64,000 bases of DNA, taken from Myxococcales bacterium 68-20. GTDB lineage: Bacteria > Myxococcota_A > Polyangia > Polyangiales > Polyangiaceae. Under the pieces are notes generated by a model. That model ran no database searches and was not told the DNA's origin. It was given only the letters and a program-made list of their open reading frames with translations. Below, in pieces: positions 28,714 to 38,876 of this stretch. The stretch covers positions 62,001 through 126,000 of the forward strand of contig MKVQ01000010.1 in NCBI GenBank assembly GCA_001899635.1. The letters are read 5' to 3'. Made by a program: the position numbers and the translations under genes. How positions within the stretch are numbered: position 1 is the first letter of the stretch; each line of letters starts with the position of its first letter.

Positions 28714-29112
28714 TCACTTCTTCGGCGCGTCGCCCCCGCGCTTGCCACCGTGCTTGCCGTGCCGGGCGTGCTTGCCGTGGTGGCCGCGGACCTCCTTCGA
28801 GACCTGGCGCACGGCCTGGGCCTCTTCCTTGGTCACGGTGCCGTCGGCGGTGGCCTTGCTCACCTCGGCGTTGATCTTCGCGATGCCGGCGTCGAACTTC
28901 GCCCGGAGCTCCTTCGCCTGCTCGGCGTTGAGCGTCGATGCGCGCTTCTCCATCCGCTCGCGAGCCTTCGCCTGCCGGGCGTCGACCCGCTCCTTGAAGG
29001 CCGCGGCGGGCATCGGGAAGCTCGCCTTCTCATGCTTCTCCCCGGCCATCGCCGGCGCGGCGACGAAGACGGTGGCGAGGGCGAGAACGGTACCGATGAT
29101 GGTGGAACGCAT
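28714..29112 (-). CDS. Small periplasmic Spy/CpxP-like helical protein
   Basis: 132 residues from ATG 29112. Clear signal peptide with cleavage at APAMA-GE. The mature protein is almost entirely helical and charged (FKERVDARQAKARERMEKRASTLNAEQ, KFDAGIAKINAEVSKATADG), ending in a His/Lys/Gly-rich tail (HHGKHARHGKHGGKRG) that could bind metal. The size and layout resemble Spy/CpxP/ZraP-type periplasmic chaperones or metal sensors, but the LTXXQ motif is not exact, so membership is uncertain. The TADGTVTKEEAQ stretch also resembles an EF-hand-type loop. The longer open frame upstream is antisense to the oxygenase and was rejected. Confidence 0.72.
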   Translation of the reverse strand: MRSTIIGTVLALATVFVAAPAMAGEKHEKASFPMPAAAFKERVDARQAKARERMEKRASTLNAEQAKELRAKFDAGIAKINAEVSKATADGTVTKEEAQAVRQVSKEVRGHHGKHARHGKHGGKRGGDAPKK

Positions 29113-29219: not shown

Positions 29220-30122
29220 TTACGGACGGGGGAAGAGGATGTGCTCGCGGAGCGCCACCGTGGCCTTCGCCCACTGGAGAAGCTCGTTCGACACGTCGCG
29301 CTGACCGTCTCCGTAGGTCGCGATCTGACCAGCCACGAAGTCGATCCGTTCGAGCGGAGTGAGGTCGGTGGAGAGTGGCCGCACTCCCATCGCCGAAAGG
29401 GCGTCGGCGCGGACGAGGGAGAACGAGCAGCTCACGCGCGCGCCCGCGGCCTCGAGCGAGCACGAGCCGCCCCAGTGCAAGATGTTGGCATTCCAGACGA
29501 GTGCCTCTCCGGCGGTCAGCGGCGCGGGACGCGTCGTGAGGGGCGACCCGAGGTCGATGCTGGCGAGCGTGTCTGGGTAGTTCGGATCCTCGTCGAGTCG
29601 AACGAAATGCATGCACGATCGATCGATCGAGGCATCGCTCAACGCTACCCACGTGTTCAACAGCTCTGGTCGTGGCCGCTCGAGAAGCGCGCTCATGCCG
29701 CGATGTGGTGGCCAACCGGCGCTGCCTCGTGGGATCTGCCAGGCCCAGGCGTCCTCGACGAGCACATAGGGCTCGTCCATGAAGGTGGACACGGCTCGAC
29801 AGAGGCGGGCACCGAGCGCGAGCGCAGCGTCCGTCGCGAGGACGAAGGCTGCGGGGAGGCCGGCGTCGACGAGGCGGCCGATCATCGTCACGAGTGAAGA
29901 GCTTACGGACGCGCTGCACTGGCGCGGCAACGGCACGAACCCGATTGCGTGGAGGTCTCGTCGTGCGTCGTCGCCACCTGCCGCCGACCGATCGATGGCC
30001 CCGGTTCCGAGAGCGGGAACCGACCCCATGAGCTGGAGGTCCTCTCCGAGGGCGCCGACCTTCGCGAAGAGCCGTTCAGACGCGTCAGGGGCTCCCAAAC
30101 GGAGCGGGGAGGCGGAGAACAT
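29220..30122 (-). CDS. PhyH-family Fe(II)/2-oxoglutarate oxygenase-like protein with His-x-Gly motif
   Basis: 300 residues. The double-stranded beta-helix core resembles phytanoyl-CoA dioxygenases: GWPPHRG with candidate iron ligand His140, then NTWVALSDASIDRSCMHFV, GEALVWNANILHWGG with second His216, and Arg229 for 2-oxoglutarate. The expected acidic ligand (H-x-D/E) is Gly142 here. In radical halogenases of this superfamily (SyrB2, WelO5, BesD types) the acid is replaced by Ala or Gly, leaving a site for chloride. The protein could therefore be a halogenase, or an inactive paralogue. It is divergent from the RiPP precursor (126 bases), so it may act in that pathway. The start is uncertain; no good ribosome site precedes ATG 30122. 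Confidence 0.75.
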   Translation of the reverse strand: MFSASPLRLGAPDASERLFAKVGALGEDLQLMGSVPALGTGAIDRSAAGGDDARRDLHAIGFVPLPRQCSASVSSSLVTMIGRLVDAGLPAAFVLATDAALALGARLCRAVSTFMDEPYVLVEDAWAWQIPRGSAGWPPHRGMSALLERPRPELLNTWVALSDASIDRSCMHFVRLDEDPNYPDTLASIDLGSPLTTRPAPLTAGEALVWNANILHWGGSCSLEAAGARVSCSFSLVRADALSAMGVRPLSTDLTPLERIDFVAGQIATYGDGQRDVSNELLQWAKATVALREHILFPRP

Positions 30123-30248: not shown

Positions 30249-30425
30249 ATGATGCCGAAGGAAGAATCCGAGTCCGTGGAGCCCGGCCCGGGCGTCCCCG
30301 CGGAGCGTCGTCCTTACCGTGCGCCTCGGCTCCGAAAGCTCGGCTCGGTTCGAGAGCTCACCCTTGGCGGAACGATGGGCATCACGGAAGGTGGGGGAAC
30401 GCTCAGAGTCACCGGCAAGATGTGA
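30249..30425 (+). CDS. Putative lasso-peptide (RiPP) precursor
   Basis: 58 residues, easily missed because it is short. GAGGAG (30232-30237) precedes tandem ATGs at 30249 and 30252. Residues 23-41 read YRAPRLRKLGSVRELTLGG, an almost ideal lasso leader motif (YxxPxLxxxG, then LT and a Gly start). Thr38 would be the conserved -2 Thr, so the core begins at Gly40: ring GGTMGITE, tail GGGTLRVTGKM. Core Glu8 is correctly placed for an eight-residue macrolactam with Gly1. The C-terminus is Met, not the Ser that paeninodin-type kinases modify; Thr12 and Thr16 of the core could be alternatives. The cyclase gene follows after 13 bases. Confidence 0.85.
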   Translation: MMPKEESESVEPGPGVPAERRPYRAPRLRKLGSVRELTLGGTMGITEGGGTLRVTGKM

Positions 30426-30438
30426 CTCCCGCCGTCTC

Positions 30439-31818
30439 GTGGTCCCACGTCACGGCTTCCGTTTTCACGCGCCCGACGCTCACACGACATCGCGCCTCGA
30501 AGAGGCGGTTGGCGGCCGTGCGCTCCCTCTCGATGTAGTAACGCTCGCGTCGAGGCTGCTGTTCGCCGCGCCGCCGGTCGAGGGCGCAACGCCGTATGTC
30601 GGCGTGCGAGCATCCTACGATCGCTCGATGGAGCTCGACGAGCTCGGTGGAGCACGTGCGCGCTCGCCGGCCGACGCTGCGGTGCGCCTCCGTCAGATGC
30701 TGGAGAGGGCAGTCGCGCACGCGCTTGATGGGACAGCGCGTGCTGCCGTGCTGGCGGGTGGTGGGCTCGACTCGGCGGCGCTCCTGGCCCTCGCGCACCG
30801 CTGGGGCCGCGAGAACGGCGTGTCGGTGTTCGCCGTCGCCCTCGACTTCGGCGGGAAGGGAGACGATCGCCCCTATCTTGCTGCGCTCGAGCGTCACCTC
30901 GGTTGCGAGGTGCTTCGCGTACGTCCCGAGGACGCGTCTGGGCGAATCGAGCTCTTCCTTCGCGGGGTCGATGCAGCACCCTTCACGTGGCCGAGCGGTG
31001 GGATGGAAGTAGAGGCGCTCGCGCGAGCTCGTGCCAACGGCGCCGAGGTCGTACTCACCGGCGTCGGTGCAGACGAGCTGGTCGATGGAGAGCCTCGATC
31101 GCTCGGCCGCCTCGCGCTTCGGGCGCCGCGGGCTGCACTCCGCAGCGCGCGGGTGATGCGTGGCTTCGCTCGTCCTTCGTCGCCCGTGGTGGCGTGGGTC
31201 GCACGGCCACTCTTGTCGGCCCTTGCACCTGCCGCGGTGCACCGTTGGCGATCACGGCGCGCGCGCACACCGCTCCCGCTCTGGGCGGGCCCTGCGCTTC
31301 GCGCATCCCTCGACGCTGGCCATCGGAGCCAAGAGCGACGATCGAGCACGCTCGAGACGAGCATGTGGGCGCTCCCGCACCACGAGCACCTCGCGTGGAT
31401 TCGCCATCAGGAAGACCTGGCGGCGGGGATCGAATGTCGTCAGCCCTTTCTCGAAGCGCATGTCCGCGCCCTCGTCGCCGAGTTCGAGCCGTCGTGGCTG
31501 CTCGAGGGCGGGATCCGCCGTGGCCTCTTTCGCGAAGCGGTCCGCGATCTGTTGCCGAACGTGCTCCTGGAGCGCGAGGACAAGGCAGGGTTCGAGGACG
31601 GGCTCCGCCGCTTCCTCATGGCGGCGGGCGGCTTCGATGTCCTTCGCCCGCTCGTCTCCGTCACTGAGCTCGCATCGCTCGGCCTCGTCGATCCACGAGT
31701 CCTCGCCGAGGCGTTCGATGCGTTCGAGCGCGCTCCCGACGACGGCGAGCACTGGGGCAACGTCTGGCCCGTACTTGCAGTCGAGGGCTTTCTTCGCGCA
31801 CGTAGCGAGGCTGCGTGA
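30439..31818 (+). CDS. Asparagine-synthetase-like lasso macrolactam synthetase (C protein)
   Basis: Predicted to adenylate the core Glu8 side chain and join it to Gly1. From GTG 30439 it has 459 residues; the frame is open further but overlaps the precursor. The PPi loop is AGGGLDSAAL (usual SGGxDS; the first Ser is Gly), later motifs are TGVGADELVDGEP, AAGIECRQPFLEAH and REAVRDLLP with the end Lys in REDKAGFEDG. Only about 90 residues precede the PPi loop, so the N-terminal glutaminase domain is heavily reduced and has no Cys1, as expected for lasso cyclases, which do not hydrolyse glutamine. Its stop overlaps the kinase start by one base (TGATG). Confidence 0.85.
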   Translation: MVPRHGFRFHAPDAHTTSRLEEAVGGRALPLDVVTLASRLLFAAPPVEGATPYVGVRASYDRSMELDELGGARARSPADAAVRLRQMLERAVAHALDGTARAAVLAGGGLDSAALLALAHRWGRENGVSVFAVALDFGGKGDDRPYLAALERHLGCEVLRVRPEDASGRIELFLRGVDAAPFTWPSGGMEVEALARARANGAEVVLTGVGADELVDGEPRSLGRLALRAPRAALRSARVMRGFARPSSPVVAWVARPLLSALAPAAVHRWRSRRARTPLPLWAGPALRASLDAGHRSQERRSSTLETSMWALPHHEHLAWIRHQEDLAAGIECRQPFLEAHVRALVAEFEPSWLLEGGIRRGLFREAVRDLLPNVLLEREDKAGFEDGLRRFLMAAGGFDVLRPLVSVTELASLGLVDPRVLAEAFDAFERAPDDGEHWGNVWPVLAVEGFLRARSEAA

Positions 31819-32621
31819 TGATCGAGCGCGACGTGTGCTGGCTCGCGGAGCACCTGGAGGACGGAGGCGTCTGCTTTCGCGTCGGAAGAAGCGGTCCCGA
31901 TGTCGTTGCGGAGTGGATCGGGCTCGCAACGCTCACGGCTCGCCGTGACGGAACCGACGTGAGGCTGGAGTTCGATCCGAGCGCCGATCCTCGCGATGTC
32001 GTGAAGATCCAGCGTGGGAGCGCGTGGTTGCTCGTCCGTCATCTCCAGGAGCGGTTCGCGTTGCATGGTGCAGCCGTCGCGGTCGATGGCCGCGGCGTCG
32101 TCCTTCTCGGTCGGAGCGGCGACGGCAAGTCCACGCTTGCGGCCGCGATGTGTCGCCGAGGGGCCGCGCTGCTCGCGGATGACGCGGTCGGGCTGGACTA
32201 CGCGGGGGAGGGGGCGTGGCGGATCGTCCCGAACGAGGTCGACCATTGGCTCGACCCTGACGCACGGATGGCTCTGGGGGCGTCGAGCTCGAGCGTTGGC
32301 AAAGAGCCCATGCGTACCATTCGCCCGGCGGAGAACGCGGCGCGCCTCGTCGCCTTCGTCGAGCTCGGCTTCGCGGAGGGGCCGCCCCGCGTCTTCCGTC
32401 GTGACGGGATCGACGCCGCCGCAAGTCTCGTTCCGCAGGTGGCCCGCTTCATTCTCGACGAGCCCGAGCGTCAACGGCGTGAGCTGGACCTCCTCCACTC
32501 GATCGTGGAGACCACACCCGTGTACCGCCTCGAGCGCCCGCGCACGTTTGACGTCCTCGATCGAACCGTTGATCTCGTCATCGACGTTGTAGGGGCCAAG
32601 AGCCCGACGACGAGGGTATGA
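31818..32621 (+). CDS. HPr-kinase-like peptide kinase (lasso kinase type)
   Basis: 267 residues. An N-terminal region of about 80 residues leads to HGAAVAVDGRGVVLLGRSGDGKST, with the P-loop at residues 98-106 and the conserved His83, then LLADDAVGLD with the acidic pair 121-122. This is the HprK/P catalytic fold without the HPr-recognition features. Similar kinases in paeninodin-type lasso clusters phosphorylate the peptide's C-terminal Ser. The core here ends in Met, so either Thr residues are used or the kinase acts on a later intermediate. Directly coupled to the cyclase upstream and 7 bases before the PqqD gene. Confidence 0.85.
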   Translation: MIERDVCWLAEHLEDGGVCFRVGRSGPDVVAEWIGLATLTARRDGTDVRLEFDPSADPRDVVKIQRGSAWLLVRHLQERFALHGAAVAVDGRGVVLLGRSGDGKSTLAAAMCRRGAALLADDAVGLDYAGEGAWRIVPNEVDHWLDPDARMALGASSSSVGKEPMRTIRPAENAARLVAFVELGFAEGPPRVFRRDGIDAAASLVPQVARFILDEPERQRRELDLLHSIVETTPVYRLERPRTFDVLDRTVDLVIDVVGAKSPTTRV

Positions 32622-32628
32622 TTGCGGG

Positions 32629-32928
32629 ATGCCGTCCGAGCTCACTCCGATACCGTCCGACATGAGCGTGCGAGTTTCGCCTCGCGTGTATGCGCGCGCA
32701 TTCGGCGACGAGATCGTGCTGCTCGACTTCGGTGTCGGCGAGTATTTCGGCCTCGATCCAATCGGCGCGGAGATCTGGCGCCGGCTCGAGGCCGGCGAAA
32801 CGTTGGCTCGAATCGCCGACAGTCTCGTCGAACGCTACGAGGTCACAAGAGAGGTCGCCTTGGGAGACATCGTTGCTCTCGTCGACGAGATGCGTGACAA
32901 GGGCCTCCTCGAAGGCCCGACGCATTGA
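32629..32928 (+). CDS. PqqD-like RiPP recognition element (lasso B1 type)
   Basis: 99 residues. A winged-helix-turn-helix PqqD fold: an N-terminal beta strand pair (VSPRVYARAFGDEIVLLDFGVGEYFGLD) followed by helices (AEIWRRLEAGETLARIADSLVERYEV ... DIVALVDEMRDKGLLE). Such domains bind the leader peptide's YxxPxL motif, which the precursor at 30249-30425 has, and present it to the modifying enzymes. In lasso systems B1 normally works with a B2 transglutaminase-like peptidase; no B2 follows. Co-transcribed with the kinase. Confidence 0.9.
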   Translation: MPSELTPIPSDMSVRVSPRVYARAFGDEIVLLDFGVGEYFGLDPIGAEIWRRLEAGETLARIADSLVERYEVTREVALGDIVALVDEMRDKGLLEGPTH

Positions 32929-33079
32929 CGCCGCGAGCCTACGATGATCGATTCCCGTTCTGTCGAGTGTGCATGCCATTCGGCGACCTCACGGGCTTAA
33001 CGTTCGAGGGCACGCGCCGTAGTGAGTGAGAGACGACGATGGATCGATTCCGTGCTACCACTGACCTTGGGGAGTCCTC
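32929..33079 (+). other. Intergenic stretch inside the RiPP cluster
   Basis: 151 bases. No clear terminator. One short open frame (TTG 32925 to 33029) encodes a 34-residue sequence ending in MPFGDLTGLTFEGTRRSE, whose GDLTGLT part faintly recalls a lasso leader end. It lacks a convincing YxxPxL box and start signal, so it is noted, not called as a gene. Confidence 0.3.
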
Positions 33080-34048
33080 ATGAGCAAACTTCATCTTTTC
33101 TGCTACGTCTCGCTTGCGACGCTGGGTCTCACTGGGGCGCTCGTCGCGTGTTCGTCCGACGACACGATCATCACGAACAACGATGGCGGTCCCAACCCCA
33201 CGGCGGACGCGGGTGTCCCCGACGCAGAGCCGAGTGACGACGCCGGGCCGGATGTCACCGACGCGGGCCTCAAGGTAGAGACGTACGCCGAACAGGTGGC
33301 GGACACGATGTGCAACGCGCTCACGCGTTGCTGCTTCGGGAATGCGAACGTTCCGGACGGCGGCACCGTCGACGGCGGTGAATCTGGATCCGGTGTGTTC
33401 GATCGCGCCGAGTGTCTCGGCCTCTACTCGCGTCTGGGATTCGAGAACGCCAACGTGGGCCTCTCCACGACGACGAAGAACGTCGTCGTCAACCAGGCGA
33501 AGGGCGCGGACTGTATCGCGAAGATCAACGCGCTGATGTGCAACCTCGACGGAGCGTCGCTCAAGGCGATCCGGTCGGCTTGCTTCGAGGCGCTCGAGGG
33601 GCAGCTCAAGAGCGGAGAGGCCTGCAAGACGTCGCTCGAGTGTGCGTCCGGGCTCTTCTGCCTCCCGGGCGACGGCGGGGTCGTCGTGGCCGATGGCGGC
33701 TCGAACGGGACATGCGCACCCCTCCGGACCAAGGGGCAGCCGTGCAGCCTCCAGGAGACCGGGAACGACGAGGTCGACTCGACCGCCTCCGAGATCGCAT
33801 GCTCGTGGCGCGGCGGCGGAGACACCAGTCTTCGCTGCGCTTCCTACGAGTCGACGACGGGCTCCTACAAGGCCGACCGTTCGACGTGGACGTGTGAGCC
33901 TACCGTCGCGAACGGCGAGATCTGCAACACGACCGTGTCGTGCGCCGACGGCATCTGCGACCCTGGCGACGACTTCGACAAGTTCGTGTGCGAACCGGTG
34001 CTGACGTACTTCAACAAGTTCGCCTGCTCCGCCCACGTCGATCCGTAG
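33080..34048 (+). CDS. Cys-rich myxobacterial lipoprotein embedded in the RiPP cluster
   Basis: 322 residues from ATG 33080 with GGGGAG five bases upstream. Signal peptide and lipobox LVACSS, then an Asp/Ala/Gly linker (DAGVPDAEPSDDAGPD). The mature part has at least 15 Cys, including SGEACKTSLECASGLFC and ATVANGEICNTTVSCADGIC-like repeats, a pattern common in myxobacterial surface lipoproteins. It is not a peptidase by any motif I can see. Its place between the PqqD and nucleotidyltransferase genes could mean a role as receptor, immunity or binding protein for the product, or a neutral insertion. Confidence 0.8.
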   Translation: MSKLHLFCYVSLATLGLTGALVACSSDDTIITNNDGGPNPTADAGVPDAEPSDDAGPDVTDAGLKVETYAEQVADTMCNALTRCCFGNANVPDGGTVDGGESGSGVFDRAECLGLYSRLGFENANVGLSTTTKNVVVNQAKGADCIAKINALMCNLDGASLKAIRSACFEALEGQLKSGEACKTSLECASGLFCLPGDGGVVVADGGSNGTCAPLRTKGQPCSLQETGNDEVDSTASEIACSWRGGGDTSLRCASYESTTGSYKADRSTWTCEPTVANGEICNTTVSCADGICDPGDDFDKFVCEPVLTYFNKFACSAHVDP

Positions 34049-34055
34049 CCGTCGT

Positions 34056-35135
34056 GTGAGGCCGGCGCAGCTGCTCCGGTCTCGCCCACTCGCGCGAGCG
34101 CTCGGTGTGAGCCGTTCATGGAGCGGGGACCGTGATCTGGTCACGGTCCTGAGGCATCTTCCCCGCGTACCTGCGGGGCTGGATGCGCGCGTGCTCTTCG
34201 CGAGCGCCGAGCGCCACGGTCTCAGCGGAGTGGTGCTGGACGCTTGGCGCGCGCAGGGGCTGCCGCTTCCCCCGGACCTTGCGCGTAGCCTCGACACACT
34301 CTCCGTCGCGCGTGCTCTCGACCATGATGCGCACGTCGCTCTGCTGAAGCGGATCGACGTGCGCTTCGCGGCGGCCTCGCTCCCTGCTGTGGCGTTGAAG
34401 GGGCCGCTGTTCGCCGAGCGTTTCTACCCACGGCCCTCGACGCGCGCGACGAGCGACATCGATCTCCTGGTTCGGCCCGGCGATCTCGATCGGGCGGCGA
34501 CCGTCCTCGCCTCTCTCGGTTTTGTCGGGACGGATGGCGCGCAGGAATCGCGACAGCGACGCGAGCACCATCACCTTCACTTCTCGCACCCCGATGCGCT
34601 GCCGCTCGAGCTGCACTTCCACGGCTACTCGGCCTTCGGGCGGATCCTGCCGAGCGAGCCGCTTCTCTCGTGCCGTCGTGATGCGCATTTCGCAGGGCTC
34701 TCGACGGTAGGAGTGCTGGCGCCGGAAGACGAGCTCGTCTTTCTCGCCGTGCATGCAGGCGCGCATCGCTTCCTCCGTCTCGGCTGGCTCTACGATCTCG
34801 CGCTCCTCGCGCACACGATGAGCGAGACGGAGCTGCGTGAGGCCGCGGAGCGCGCCCGCGCGTGGGGCTTCAATCGTATCCTCTCCTTTGCTGCGTCTTT
34901 GCTCGTCGACGTCCTCGGCGCCCCGTCCGAGCGTCTCGCACCGCTCGGTGAGCCTGGCGCCGTTCGACGAGCGGTCGCACGAAGGACCGTCGGAGAGCCT
35001 CACAATCCGGTGCTCCGCTCTGCGACACGTTTCCTGTTCACGGTCACGCTCTGCGATGATGCGCGCGCTGCAGCCCGGTACGCGTTTCGCGCGTCGGGCT
35101 CGCACGCGCGACGCATTCTCTCGAGTGAGCGGTGA
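34056..35135 (+). CDS. Nucleotidyltransferase-family protein (PF14907 type)
   Basis: 359 residues from GTG 34056. The family signature is VALKGPLFAERFYPRPSTRATSDIDLLVR: Lys115, then the catalytic Asp134/Asp136 of the DID motif, followed by LELHFHGYS and an EDELVFLAVHAGAHRF helix. This family recurs in lasso and other RiPP clusters and may transfer a nucleotide or a sugar-nucleotide piece, but no reaction is established. The next gene overlaps it by four bases (GTGA, 35132-35135), so the two are translationally coupled and probably act together. Confidence 0.85.
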   Translation: MRPAQLLRSRPLARALGVSRSWSGDRDLVTVLRHLPRVPAGLDARVLFASAERHGLSGVVLDAWRAQGLPLPPDLARSLDTLSVARALDHDAHVALLKRIDVRFAAASLPAVALKGPLFAERFYPRPSTRATSDIDLLVRPGDLDRAATVLASLGFVGTDGAQESRQRREHHHLHFSHPDALPLELHFHGYSAFGRILPSEPLLSCRRDAHFAGLSTVGVLAPEDELVFLAVHAGAHRFLRLGWLYDLALLAHTMSETELREAAERARAWGFNRILSFAASLLVDVLGAPSERLAPLGEPGAVRRAVARRTVGEPHNPVLRSATRFLFTVTLCDDARAAARYAFRASGSHARRILSSER

Positions 35136-36010
35136 GCTCTACTCGGCCGCTCGTCACCATCGGTGTGCCGTTCCGGAACGAGGAGCGATACCTCGAAGCC
35201 GCCGTGCGGTCGCTGCTCGCTCAGACGTGGACGAATCTCGAGATCCTCCTCGTTGACGACGGATCGACGGACGGATCTCTCGCGATCGCGCGGGCGTTTC
35301 GCGACGAGAGGGTCACGGTAGTGAGTGACGGTCGACGTCGATTCCTGCCGGCCAGGCTCAATGAGATCGTCGCACGCGCCCGAGGAGAGCTGGTCGCGCG
35401 CATGGATGGCGACGACGTGGCGCATCCGGATCGAATTCGGCGTGAAGTGGAGGCACTCGAGGCAGCCGGACCGGACTACGCCGGGGCCGGCACCTGGGCC
35501 GCCGTCGTCGACGAGCGGGACGAGGTGTTCGCGGTCATCGAGGCGAGCGTGCCGGCGTCCTCCGTCGTCGCCCTCGAGCGTGGGCTGTTCCCGCACGCCA
35601 CGTTCGTTGCTCGTCGCGAATGGCTGCTTGCACATCCATACGACGAAGCGCTCACTCGTGCCGAAGACCGAGACCTCTGGTGTCGAACCGTCGAGACATC
35701 ACGATTCGTGATCGTCCCGGAGCCGCTCTACGTCGTCCGTACGCTCTCCGCGCATCCGACGTTCTTGCCCGACTACATCGAGTCGCAGCGTCAGAACCGC
35801 ATCCTGTTCGCTCGCTACGGACCTCGAACGATTGGATGGAGGCGTACGTCCCAGGTGTATGCTGCAGCATGGGCGAAGGGCATCGTGATGCGCGCGGCTG
35901 TCCGGCTCGGCGTTGCTGACCACCTCGTTCGCCGTCGCGGCCGGCCGCCGACCGAGCACGAGCGACGCCTCGTGCGCGAAGCACTCGTGAGCGCGCGCGG
36001 ATGCTCCTGA
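35132..36010 (+). CDS. Family 2 glycosyltransferase
   Basis: 292 residues. GT-A fold inverting glycosyltransferase: PLVTIGVPFRNEERYLEAAV start, ILLVDDGSTDGS for nucleotide binding, ARMDGDD (the DxD metal motif), and GLFPHATFVARREW, with a possible catalytic base in ALTRAEDRDLW. The C-terminal part is soluble, with no membrane helix. Coupled to the nucleotidyltransferase, so it could glycosylate the RiPP product or a carrier; a polysaccharide role is the alternative. Converges with the methyltransferase, 40 bases away. Confidence 0.88.
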   Translation: MSSTRPLVTIGVPFRNEERYLEAAVRSLLAQTWTNLEILLVDDGSTDGSLAIARAFRDERVTVVSDGRRRFLPARLNEIVARARGELVARMDGDDVAHPDRIRREVEALEAAGPDYAGAGTWAAVVDERDEVFAVIEASVPASSVVALERGLFPHATFVARREWLLAHPYDEALTRAEDRDLWCRTVETSRFVIVPEPLYVVRTLSAHPTFLPDYIESQRQNRILFARYGPRTIGWRRTSQVYAAAWAKGIVMRAAVRLGVADHLVRRRGRPPTEHERRLVREALVSARGCS

Positions 36011-36050
36011 CGCCCCGCCATGGACCGTGTCGCGTCGCCGGCGCGGCGAC

Positions 36051-37190
36051 TCAGCGCCCGTAGCGGGCCGCGAGGTCGCGCACCTCTTCGAGGAGCGTCG
36101 CTGCCGGAAGGTCCGGCGTGTCCGGCAACGCGGCGAGCTCGGTCGCGATCTCGGCGATGCTCCGTTCGCCGTTCATCATCGATAGAGCGCGCTTTGCACG
36201 CTCACCCAGAGGAGACGGAAGCGGCGTGAAGCTCGACGAGCCGCGCAGCAGTGCTTCGGGGGACGTGGGCATTCCGAAGAAGCTCGACTGCCGCGCGCGC
36301 ATCTTCACGTCACCGCCTTCGGTCGTAATGGTCGTCTCCCACGCCCAGCGCTGCCCTTGATCGTCGACGCGCAAGAGAAGACGAACACGATCGCCGTGGT
36401 CGATCTCCACTGGCTCGACCAGCGGTAGCACGAAGCGCGAGTACACCATCGACGTACCTGGCTCCGTGGTGAAGCCGAGGTCGCCGAGGATCGTCGCCGC
36501 GAACCAGATGGCCAGGCCATGAGCGGTTCCTCGCCGGCGGGGCGCGAGGACGACCTCTCCTTCGAGCGGTGCGTGCTCCGCGCCGTACTCGATCTTCGCC
36601 CATGGTGCGGACGTCGTGAGGAGATCGCTTGCGCGGAGGCGTCCACCATCGGCGAGCGGTGTGTTGAGGATTGACCGTCTGATGCTCTCGGACGCTAACC
36701 CGCGTCGTTCGAAGCCCGCGCTTCCGCGCGCGAGCCAGCCGGCCATCTCTTCGTTCTCGAACACGCTGACGAAGAGCTCGTCACGCTCGGGGATCAAGGT
36801 TCCGTTCGGGGCGAGCAAGCGCGCCTTCGCGTCACGGAGGACCGCGAAGTGATCGCCGTGGGTCGGTACGCTTCCGCGAAGGTCGGACACGATGACGTCG
36901 GCCTTCTCGGGCAGCGTCAGCTCGTACGAGGTCGTGTGGTGGATCTCGATCCGGCCCTCGAAGCCATTCTCTCGGGCGAGCTCTGGGATGAGCCACACGG
37001 CTGGGTTGGGATCGACCGCATGCACTCGCCGCGCTCCTGCTCGAACGGCGAGTAGCGTGAGGATCCCGGTCCCGGCGCCGATGTCGAGCACGACGCTGCC
37101 GGGCTTCACGGCCCGTTCGATGGCGCGAGCGTAGGCATCCATCCGTACGCCATCCGCGGCCATGTGACCGTAGTTGAGCACCGAGTACAT
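36051..37190 (-). CDS. PRMT-like SAM methyltransferase with C-terminal PqqD-like domain
   Basis: 379 residues. MYSVLNYGHMAADGVRMDAY and VVLDIGAGTGILTLLAVRAGARRVHAVD match the protein-arginine-methyltransferase-like fold. The PRMT double-Glu loop is not evident (ADVIVSDLRGSVP instead), so Arg methylation is not assured; a related group is seen in RiPP clusters. From about residue 325 the protein has ERAKRALSMMNGERSIAEIATELAAL and a final helix, resembling a PqqD-like recognition domain. That would let it bind a leader peptide directly. Opposite strand to the cluster core, divergent from the ABC exporter. Confidence 0.82.
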   Translation of the reverse strand: MYSVLNYGHMAADGVRMDAYARAIERAVKPGSVVLDIGAGTGILTLLAVRAGARRVHAVDPNPAVWLIPELARENGFEGRIEIHHTTSYELTLPEKADVIVSDLRGSVPTHGDHFAVLRDAKARLLAPNGTLIPERDELFVSVFENEEMAGWLARGSAGFERRGLASESIRRSILNTPLADGGRLRASDLLTTSAPWAKIEYGAEHAPLEGEVVLAPRRRGTAHGLAIWFAATILGDLGFTTEPGTSMVYSRFVLPLVEPVEIDHGDRVRLLLRVDDQGQRWAWETTITTEGGDVKMRARQSSFFGMPTSPEALLRGSSSFTPLPSPLGERAKRALSMMNGERSIAEIATELAALPDTPDLPAATLLEEVRDLAARYGR

Positions 37191-37250
37191 GGGTCGGTCG
37201 TATCCGATTTCCGGGGGGGCTGTGCAAGGCGCGATGCTAGAAATTCATCC

Positions 37251-38876
37251 GTGGGCAGCGCCTCTCTGGTCCGCATCCTCATGGCGCGGACGTCCCGTCG
37301 TACGCGCGCATGGCTCGGCCTTGCCGTCGTCCTCGGCGTGGTTGGACGTCTTCTCCTCGTCGTCTTGGCGAGCCGGCTTGCCGATGGTGTGTCCACGATG
37401 GCGGTGGAGCTCGGGGGCGCCAGCGCGATCGTCTTCGCGATGCTCCGAGCTGTCCAGTCGTTTGCTCGTGTCGGCGTGCAGCGTGATGTCTATTCGATGA
37501 CTGTACGAGCGGTTCTCGCCGGCGACGTCGTCGGTGTCCCGACGTCCGATGTGCGGCGTGTCGCGCTCGATGGCAGCTACCACGCGGCCGTCCTGGTCGG
37601 GGAGCTGACGCCCGTGCTGATCGCGGACATCGTCACGGCGCTCGCGCTCTTGCCCTTTCTCACGGTGACGTTTCCGGCGCGTCTTCTCGTGCTCGCGGCA
37701 GCGGCGGTTCTCGTCGTCATGCTGGCTGCCCTGGCGCTCCGTGCAGTCGCGTATCGCCTAGAGCAACGGGTCGCCGATGCCTACGGCGGCGTGTTCGACA
37801 CGCTGCTGGGGTCGATCGAGAACCGGGTCGAGATCGTGGCGCGCGCGGGTGAGCCGGAGTTCGCCGCTGCGTTCGAGCGTCAGCTCGCCGCCTACGAGTC
37901 GCTCGCGCGCCGGCTCGGCTTCGGAGGCTCGGTGTTGCGTCGCGCACCAATCGCCGCAGGTGCTCTCGCGGTCCTCGCGGTAGTCAGTGTCGACGGCGCC
38001 TCGCGTAGTGTCATAGAGGGGGCCGTGTTGCAGCAGGCGCTCGTCCTGGCCGCCTGCATCCCGCCGATTCACGGAGCGCTCCTCGGCGCATACGGGATGG
38101 TGAGGTCGCTCGTCTTCGTTCGGCCGCTGGCCGAGCTCCTCCTCGGCGCGCGCCATACCGAATACCGGCCATCGGGGACCCAAGTCGTCGAGTTGCCGGT
38201 TGCCGTGCGAGGCGTAGGCGTTGGTTTCGCCTACTCGGACGATGCTCCACCGGTGCTCGCCGATGTCAGCTTCGTCTGGAGCCCAAACGTCCCGCTCGTG
38301 CTCGTCGGCCCGAACGGTGCGGGAAAGAGCACGCTTTTCAAGCTGCTACTGGGTCTTCGCTCGCCGACATCGGGGACGCTTTGGTACGGCGAACACGCGC
38401 TCGCCGCGCTCGACCTCCAGAGCCTCCGCCGTCAGGTGGCCTACCTTCCGCAGCGCCCGTACCTCGGCGAGGCGCACGTTACCGTGCGCGCCGCGCTCAA
38501 GCTTGCAGTGCCGCACGCATCCGACGAAGCGATGCGCCAAGCGCTCGAGCGCGTGTGTCTACGCGAGGCTCTCTGTAGGCACGGTGCCGACGAGCTTGCC
38601 GTTCCGGTCGGCGAGCTCTCGACGGGGCAGCGGCAGCGCGTGGCGTTGGCACGCGTGCTCCTGCAGGAAGCGAAGCTGATGTTGCTCGACGAACCGGACG
38701 CAAACCTCGATCAGGAGGGCGTGGTGCTCGTCGCCTCAATCGTGAAAGAGCTCTGCGCGGAAGGTAGAATGGTCGCGATTGCAGCCCACACACCGGAGCT
38801 TGCGGCCTTGTCGAGAACCCCCGTCGAGCTGGGGCGGCGCTCGATCGTTGCGCTCCGGTCTGCGAGCAGCGGCTGA
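37251..38876 (+). CDS. ABC exporter, fused membrane and ATPase domains (D protein candidate)
   Basis: About 541 residues from GTG 37251; ATG 37281 is the alternative. A six-helix exporter domain occupies roughly residues 15-320. The ATPase has Walker A GPNGAGKST (about 353-361), the signature LSTGQRQRV (Ser-Thr-Gly instead of Ser-Gly-Gly), and Walker B LMLLDEPDANLD with its Glu. There is no N-terminal C39 peptidase domain, so it would not cut a leader while exporting. The likely job is export of the mature RiPP and self-protection. Divergent from the methyltransferase. Confidence 0.88.
   Translation: MGSASLVRILMARTSRRTRAWLGLAVVLGVVGRLLLVVLASRLADGVSTMAVELGGASAIVFAMLRAVQSFARVGVQRDVYSMTVRAVLAGDVVGVPTSDVRRVALDGSYHAAVLVGELTPVLIADIVTALALLPFLTVTFPARLLVLAAAAVLVVMLAALALRAVAYRLEQRVADAYGGVFDTLLGSIENRVEIVARAGEPEFAAAFERQLAAYESLARRLGFGGSVLRRAPIAAGALAVLAVVSVDGASRSVIEGAVLQQALVLAACIPPIHGALLGAYGMVRSLVFVRPLAELLLGARHTEYRPSGTQVVELPVAVRGVGVGFAYSDDAPPVLADVSFVWSPNVPLVLVGPNGAGKSTLFKLLLGLRSPTSGTLWYGEHALAALDLQSLRRQVAYLPQRPYLGEAHVTVRAALKLAVPHASDEAMRQALERVCLREALCRHGADELAVPVGELSTGQRQRVALARVLLQEAKLMLLDEPDANLDQEGVVLVASIVKELCAEGRMVAIAAHTPELAALSRTPVELGRRSIVALRSASSG

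Follow-up and report, generated by a model that had tools for sequence, protein, structure and literature searches.

The minimal machinery of lasso peptide biosynthesis is taken to be a C96 peptidase, an RRE and a cyclase, and genome mining tools look for that set. The described systems close to the locus reported here include the paeninodin- and pseudomycoidin-type clusters of Firmicutes (A, C, K, B1, B2, N and D), with which it shares a split B1, an HPr-kinase-like K, a nucleotidyltransferase-like gene, an Asn-synthetase-like C and an ABC exporter (PMC9266682, PMC5067487). It differs from this type in having no B2 and in the shortness of its cyclase. The locus lies in the genome of Myxococcales bacterium 68-20, within a 64,000-nucleotide stretch of contig MKVQ01000010.1 (the window), to which all coordinates refer unless a locus is named. 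The best reading of the evidence is a lasso-type RiPP cassette, working and vertically conserved, from which the leader peptidase has been lost.

Results

The precursor and its homologues

The frame at 30249-30425 comprises 58 codons (translation MMPKEESESVEPGPGVPAERRPYRAPRLRKLGSVRELTLGGTMGITEGGGTLRVTGKM, followed by a stop), and a GAGGAG motif is found about 12-18 bases 5' of its first ATG. The leader segment YRAPRLRKLG follows the YxxPxLxxxG pattern, the predicted cleavage point is flanked by Thr at -2 and Gly at +1, and Glu occupies core position 8. Against the NCBIfam model NF033521 (lasso_leader_L3, cut-off 19) the precursor scored 28.1 bits, and across the 11.9-Mb genome this model exceeded its cut-off at this place only.

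Of 194 related genomes, 69 contained homologues of the precursor at a threshold of E 0.05; the weaker of these matches include chance ones. Most of the relatives are draft MAGs; those that are named belong to Labilithrix and other Polyangiaceae or Myxococcales, in keeping with the first-pass annotation, which had placed the host among the myxobacteria. We aligned 38 homologue cores, taken from cassette loci, by their leaders. Core residue 1 is usually Gly (30 cores; Ala in five, Ser in two and Thr in one), and all 38 cores carry an Asp or Glu at positions 7-9 (three at 7, 30 at 8 and six at 9, one core having two), an outcome reached in none of 10,000 core shuffles. The same annotation had proposed a lasso-type precursor gene at 30249-30425 with an eight-residue ring, GGTMGITE, and had named a lack of conservation of Gly1, Glu8 and the leader positions among homologues as the observation that would speak against it. 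What we found is the opposite: residue 1 and the acid at 7-9 are kept, which supports the predicted ring, and the match to the leader family, the homologues and the selection on the gene bear out the precursor itself.

The precursor gene is under purifying selection. Compared with the nearest relative (L031), dN/dS amounts to 0.19 for the precursor, 0.22 for the cyclase, 0.18 for the kinase and 0.12 for B1, within a range of 0.12-0.35 across the ten cassette genes.

Some relatives showed unusual precursor arrangements. L063 (1570-1862) contains a tandem pair of precursors whose cores are almost the same (GATGRGGDFASLRGNRS and GRTGRGGDFASLRS). In L028 (1441-1986; genome G068) and L030 (1399-1968; genome G087), a lasso-type leader and core run on in frame into about 110 residues (SSREAKEDI...) that resemble the self-cleaving chaperone Peptidase_S74, with scores (18.5 and 17.4 bits) that fall short of the cut-off of 22. 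This extension is possibly a follower domain that releases the C-terminus of the core.

Gene content of the cassette

The precursor heads a run of nine genes from 30249 to 38876. The first-pass annotation had described this run correctly as a nine-gene cluster and had overlooked a tenth gene, which lies upstream in divergent orientation. It had likewise passed over the missing B2 and the shortened cyclase described below. The features of the locus are the following:

29220-30122, minus strand: PhyH-type Fe/2OG oxygenase-like protein, candidate halogenase (PF05721, E 1.2e-6)
30249-30425, plus strand: precursor, leader ...YRAPRLRKLGSVRELTL / predicted core GGTMGITEGGGTLRVTGKM, with predicted ring Gly1-Glu8 and C-terminal Met19
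30439-31818, plus strand: macrolactam cyclase (C), Asn_synthase domain only (PF00733, E 2.5e-37)
31815-32621, plus strand: HPr-kinase-like kinase (K), P-loop GRSGDGKST, kept in cassettes (PF07475, E 1.6e-10)
32629-32928, plus strand: PqqD/RRE leader-binding protein (B1), with Tyr replacing His (PF05402, E 6.9e-20)
32929-33079, no strand: B2-less site between B1 and the lipoprotein, occupied by B2 in relatives (locus comparison)
33080-34048, plus strand: Cys-rich secreted lipoprotein, apparently of a cassette-specific family (29 matches across loci)
34056-35135, plus strand: NTP_transf_5 nucleotidyltransferase-like protein (PF14907, E 4.6e-41)
35132-36010, plus strand: family-2 glycosyltransferase (PF00535, E 2.8e-29)
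36051-37190, minus strand: PRMT/PrmA-like methyltransferase, in the cassette of most relatives (PF06325, E 5.6e-10)
37164-38876, plus strand: ABC transporter, permease/ATPase (PF00005, E 5.9e-29)

As had been noted from the sequence, a cyclase, an HPr-kinase-like kinase and a PqqD protein follow the precursor within 2.5 kb: the Asn_synthase-domain cyclase, the P-loop protein and the PqqD protein all end by 32928. The tailoring genes noted earlier are also present, namely those for the NTP_transf_5 protein, which is possibly a hexosyl or nucleotidyl tailoring enzyme, the glycosyltransferase and the methyltransferase. Against the specialised models, the kinase matched TIGR04352 weakly, under the cut-off of that model, B1 scored 52 and 43 bits against the lasso PqqD models of NCBIfam, under their cut-offs, and the NCBIfam lasso cyclase models likewise stayed under cut-off. 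The true start of the ABC transporter probably lies downstream of 37164.

The length comparison revealed that the Asn_synthase domain of the window cyclase begins after only about 75-80 residues, versus about 170-250 in many relatives. The N-terminal glutaminase-like domain is missing and, according to the motif alignment, the GG-x-DS ATP motif is kept. A short cyclase also occurs in the B2-bearing clade of L064 and L065, and the shortening is therefore not tied to the loss of B2.

Versions of the cassette (C, K, B1, lipoprotein and ABC) recur across about 12 related genera. Many of these loci also have their flanking genes in common (secG, tpiA, pgk and gap in the window), a pattern indicative of vertical inheritance of the cassette.

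In its own genome the lipoprotein occurs in full length once. Its predicted model reached a pLDDT of 65, and a search of the PDB gave no match at E 0.001 or better. It could be a receptor, an immunity protein or a processing factor.

Sister clusters made up of a precursor and a cyclase, with no K, B1 or B2 nearby, were found at L033, L034 (4695-8045) and L035 (9927-14619); in L033, where the leader has Ala at -2, the cyclase was not detected near the precursor. L034 and L035 encode the domain of the cassette lipoprotein as a fusion with a trypsin domain (PF00089); L035 also has a beta-lactamase-fold gene in between.

The oxygenase-like protein and the C-terminal methionine

The AlphaFold (AF2) model of the tenth gene product (pLDDT 83) adopts the double-stranded beta-helix fold of 2OG oxygenases. 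Its best fold matches are a mixture of epimerase, hydroxylases and halogenases, with SnoN and OkaE at Z of about 18 and CurA Hal and SyrB2 at E of about 1e-9 to 4e-8. Residues H140-R141-G142, H216 and R229 are invariant in the 14 copies. The HRG motif, in which the carboxylate of HxD/E is replaced by Gly while the two His are kept, is thus present in 14 of 14 copies, and the alignment places HQD there in the paralogues of the same genome.

Fe/2OG halogenases usually have Gly or Ala in place of the carboxylate (PMC8407142), which makes the protein a candidate member of this group. The HxG mark alone does not prove activity: the change of Asp to Gly or Ala in prolyl hydroxylase killed activity and brought no gain of halogenation (PMC2767507). 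We give a halogenase and its negation equal weight, the latter being either a hydroxylase whose iron site has changed or a member without catalytic function, a distinction that concerns the tailoring step only. The mixed fold matches and the dN/dS of the gene, which at 0.35 is the highest of the ten, favour a protein other than a halogenase, whereas the invariance of HRG and the distal His in all copies fits a working site.

Every copy that we found sits either in a lasso cassette or, near a contig end, next to the cassette methyltransferase. The core ends in Met in 14 of 14 PhyH-bearing cassettes versus one of nine PhyH-lacking ones (Fisher p 2e-5, ignoring kinship). A tree-based correlation of PhyH, Met and B2 contains 2-3 independent pairs only, too few for significance, and the correlations could reflect few events. 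In L057 no PhyH gene is left between the genes for the precursor and F17, and the core terminates in Pro, while its sister L058 retains both PhyH and the C-terminal Met. The three sister-cluster precursors of L033-L035 end in Met with no PhyH nearby, so the link between PhyH and Met is not absolute.

Downstream of the oxygenase gene, at 28750-29112 on the minus strand, the window encodes a small secreted Metal_resist/Spy-like protein. Its gene adjoins the oxygenase gene in seven relatives and is kept in L057 despite the loss of the oxygenase. The F17 side gene next to PhyH was also considered as a peptidase and set aside, its product giving only a weak Metal_resist match and having a periplasmic look.

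Absence of the leader peptidase

In related loci (L036, L037, L046, L047, L049, L060, L064, L065 and L070), a B2 peptidase with the motifs GTCLSRAL and HAWVE follows B1 and is located between B1 and the lipoprotein. B2 (C96, PF13471) is absent from 14 cassettes, including that of the window. No protein exceeded the PF13471 cut-off in the genome of the window (best score 16.2 bits) or in the 13 further genomes with B2-less cassettes, all first-look candidates having been scored in all 14. A second profile (A2), built from the B2 proteins of the relatives themselves, was also negative in the B2-less genomes, with 150 candidates scored per genome; in control genomes it recovered B2 at 110-144 bits. 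With no detectable B2 in the cluster or the genome, the standard lasso route is incomplete as encoded. Because the C96 transglutaminase-like leader peptidase (B2 or B) was looked for with PF13471 and the family profile and not found, we class the cassette as a variant of lasso type and do not place it among the standard lasso clusters.

Other candidates for the missing activity were considered and rejected. Domain and profile searches found no peptidase fused to the ABC protein, the kinase or B1, and the ABC protein has no C39 domain for cleavage at GG. The PhyH protein was discarded as the sole substitute because L057 has neither B2 nor PhyH, and because oxygenase chemistry would not give a free Gly1 amine. 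A PF13471 match in genome G001, a Labilithrix relative, belongs to a different cluster (L111, contig C482), a separate lasso-type cluster of an ABC protein, a cyclase, PqqD and a PF13471 peptidase.

The absence of B2 coincides with a substitution in B1. The first strand of B1 (beta-1, VHVREF) has a His in every related B2-bearing locus, as well as in L050, the cassette of genome G030, whose B2 is encoded elsewhere. This position is Tyr or Phe in 14 of 14 B2-less loci, and Tyr in the window. A study of PadeB1 suggests a role for the beta-1/beta-2 region in the contact between B1 and B2 (PMC5067487), and the switch from His to Tyr or Phe, read together with that work, supports a real loss of B2 use in these cassettes.

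An ordinary lasso peptide, made with a C96 B2 that acts in trans and is too divergent to recognise or missing from the assembly, would be an unlikely explanation. G030, a one-contig genome, provides a precedent: its cassette has no B2, and a solitary B2 stands elsewhere (L113:7086-7571, G030 C1:1026244; 110 bits); we detected no further lasso genes in the several kb around it. Furthermore, the alignment showed that Thr at -2, which is tied to peptidase recognition (PMC10885120), is kept in every B2-less cassette that carries the oxygenase gene, so that a peptidase with this preference may remain for these precursors. However, the same gap in 14 assemblies is itself unlikely, and G030 retains the B1 His that the B2-less cassettes do not.

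It is improbable that the cyclase in B2-less clusters makes no lasso but a different amide, either between two side chains or on a peptide still carrying its leader, with export followed by leader trimming, for example by surface proteases. The absence of B2 would suit this scenario, as would the single Lys of the window core and the lipoprotein-trypsin fusion in the precursor and cyclase clusters L034 and L035. Against this, the spacing of 7-9 from residue 1 to the acid is kept in the B2-less precursors, as would be expected were residue 1 to end up as a free amine, and many B2-less cores contain no Lys, which means that a side-chain amine is not general. Decay of a dying cluster, suggested by two missing parts (B2 and the cyclase N-terminal domain), is very improbable given the dN/dS of 0.12-0.22 for the precursor, cyclase, kinase and B1, the intact cyclase ATP motif, a B2-less state common to several genera, and the occurrence of the short cyclase in a B2-bearing clade.

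Discussion

We consider it fairly probable that the cassette yields a Gly1-Glu8 macrolactam that is tailored and probably threaded as a lasso, its leader having been cut off by a non-C96 peptidase encoded elsewhere. In this route, B1 (PqqD) would bind the YRAPRLRKLG leader and a peptidase unrelated to C96, encoded outside the cassette, would cut after ELTL. The ATP-dependent cyclase would then close the ring around the tail by linking the amine of Gly1 to the side chain of Glu8. The kinase together with the sugar and methyl enzymes would tailor the precursor or the product, the HxG 2OG-type enzyme would modify one or the other, probably at the C-terminal Met, and the ABC protein would export the product. 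A bolder version, which we hold to be doubtful, envisages a Polyangiaceae lasso subclass that matures without any C96 peptidase by means of a new leader-removal enzyme and also employs an Fe/2OG radical halogenase on the C-terminal Met of a ribosomal peptide.

The cassette is under selection in at least 14 genomes with no C96 peptidase, and its B1 has changed to match, which suggests that another peptidase can do the job. B2-less lasso-type clusters may consequently be overlooked by mining tools. Both the lack of B2 and the halogenase-like iron site of the neighbouring enzyme are uncommon among lasso clusters. A literature search that covered few subscription journals yielded no description of lasso clusters lacking B2, nor of any lasso peptide from Labilithrix. 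Radical halogenation at an aliphatic position of a ribosomal peptide, if true, would add a useful new activity. Both ideas, a non-C96 peptidase and halogenation, can be tested directly with the L057/L058 pair and the His/Tyr switch in B1.

Comparison with known systems

Like the window cassette, the cochonodin I cluster has no stand-alone B2, but there peptidase and ABC transporter form one fused protein (cited in PMC10885120), an arrangement that the window cassette does not have. The predicted core of the window ends in GKM and thus in Met, unlike paeninodin, where PadeK phosphorylates a C-terminal Ser. In comparison with the paeninodin/pseudomycoidin type, the window adds a glycosyltransferase, a methyltransferase, a lipoprotein and the HxG oxygenase-like gene; the likeness of its NTP_transf_5 gene to PsmN is one of nucleotidyltransferase-like type.

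A parallel for the oxygenase-like gene within a lasso cluster comes from canucin A, whose CanE, a known Fe/2OG enzyme of lasso biosynthesis, has the last residue of its precursor as target (PMC9266682). The two clusters share an Fe/2OG-type enzyme and a C-terminal target, the latter being proposed only for the window; CanE is a hydroxylase, whereas the window enzyme has the HxG iron motif and the residue it tracks is Met. The peptide-tryptophan halogenase of the lasso literature is flavin-dependent (cited in PMC13352647). With SyrB2, CurA Hal, WelO5 and BesD, the window enzyme shares the 2OG-oxygenase fold and the replacement of the carboxylate ligand by Gly or Ala (PMC8407142). The reviewed Fe/2OG halogenases act on carrier-bound or free small substrates, whereas the substrate proposed for the window enzyme, whose activity is a prediction, is a peptide.
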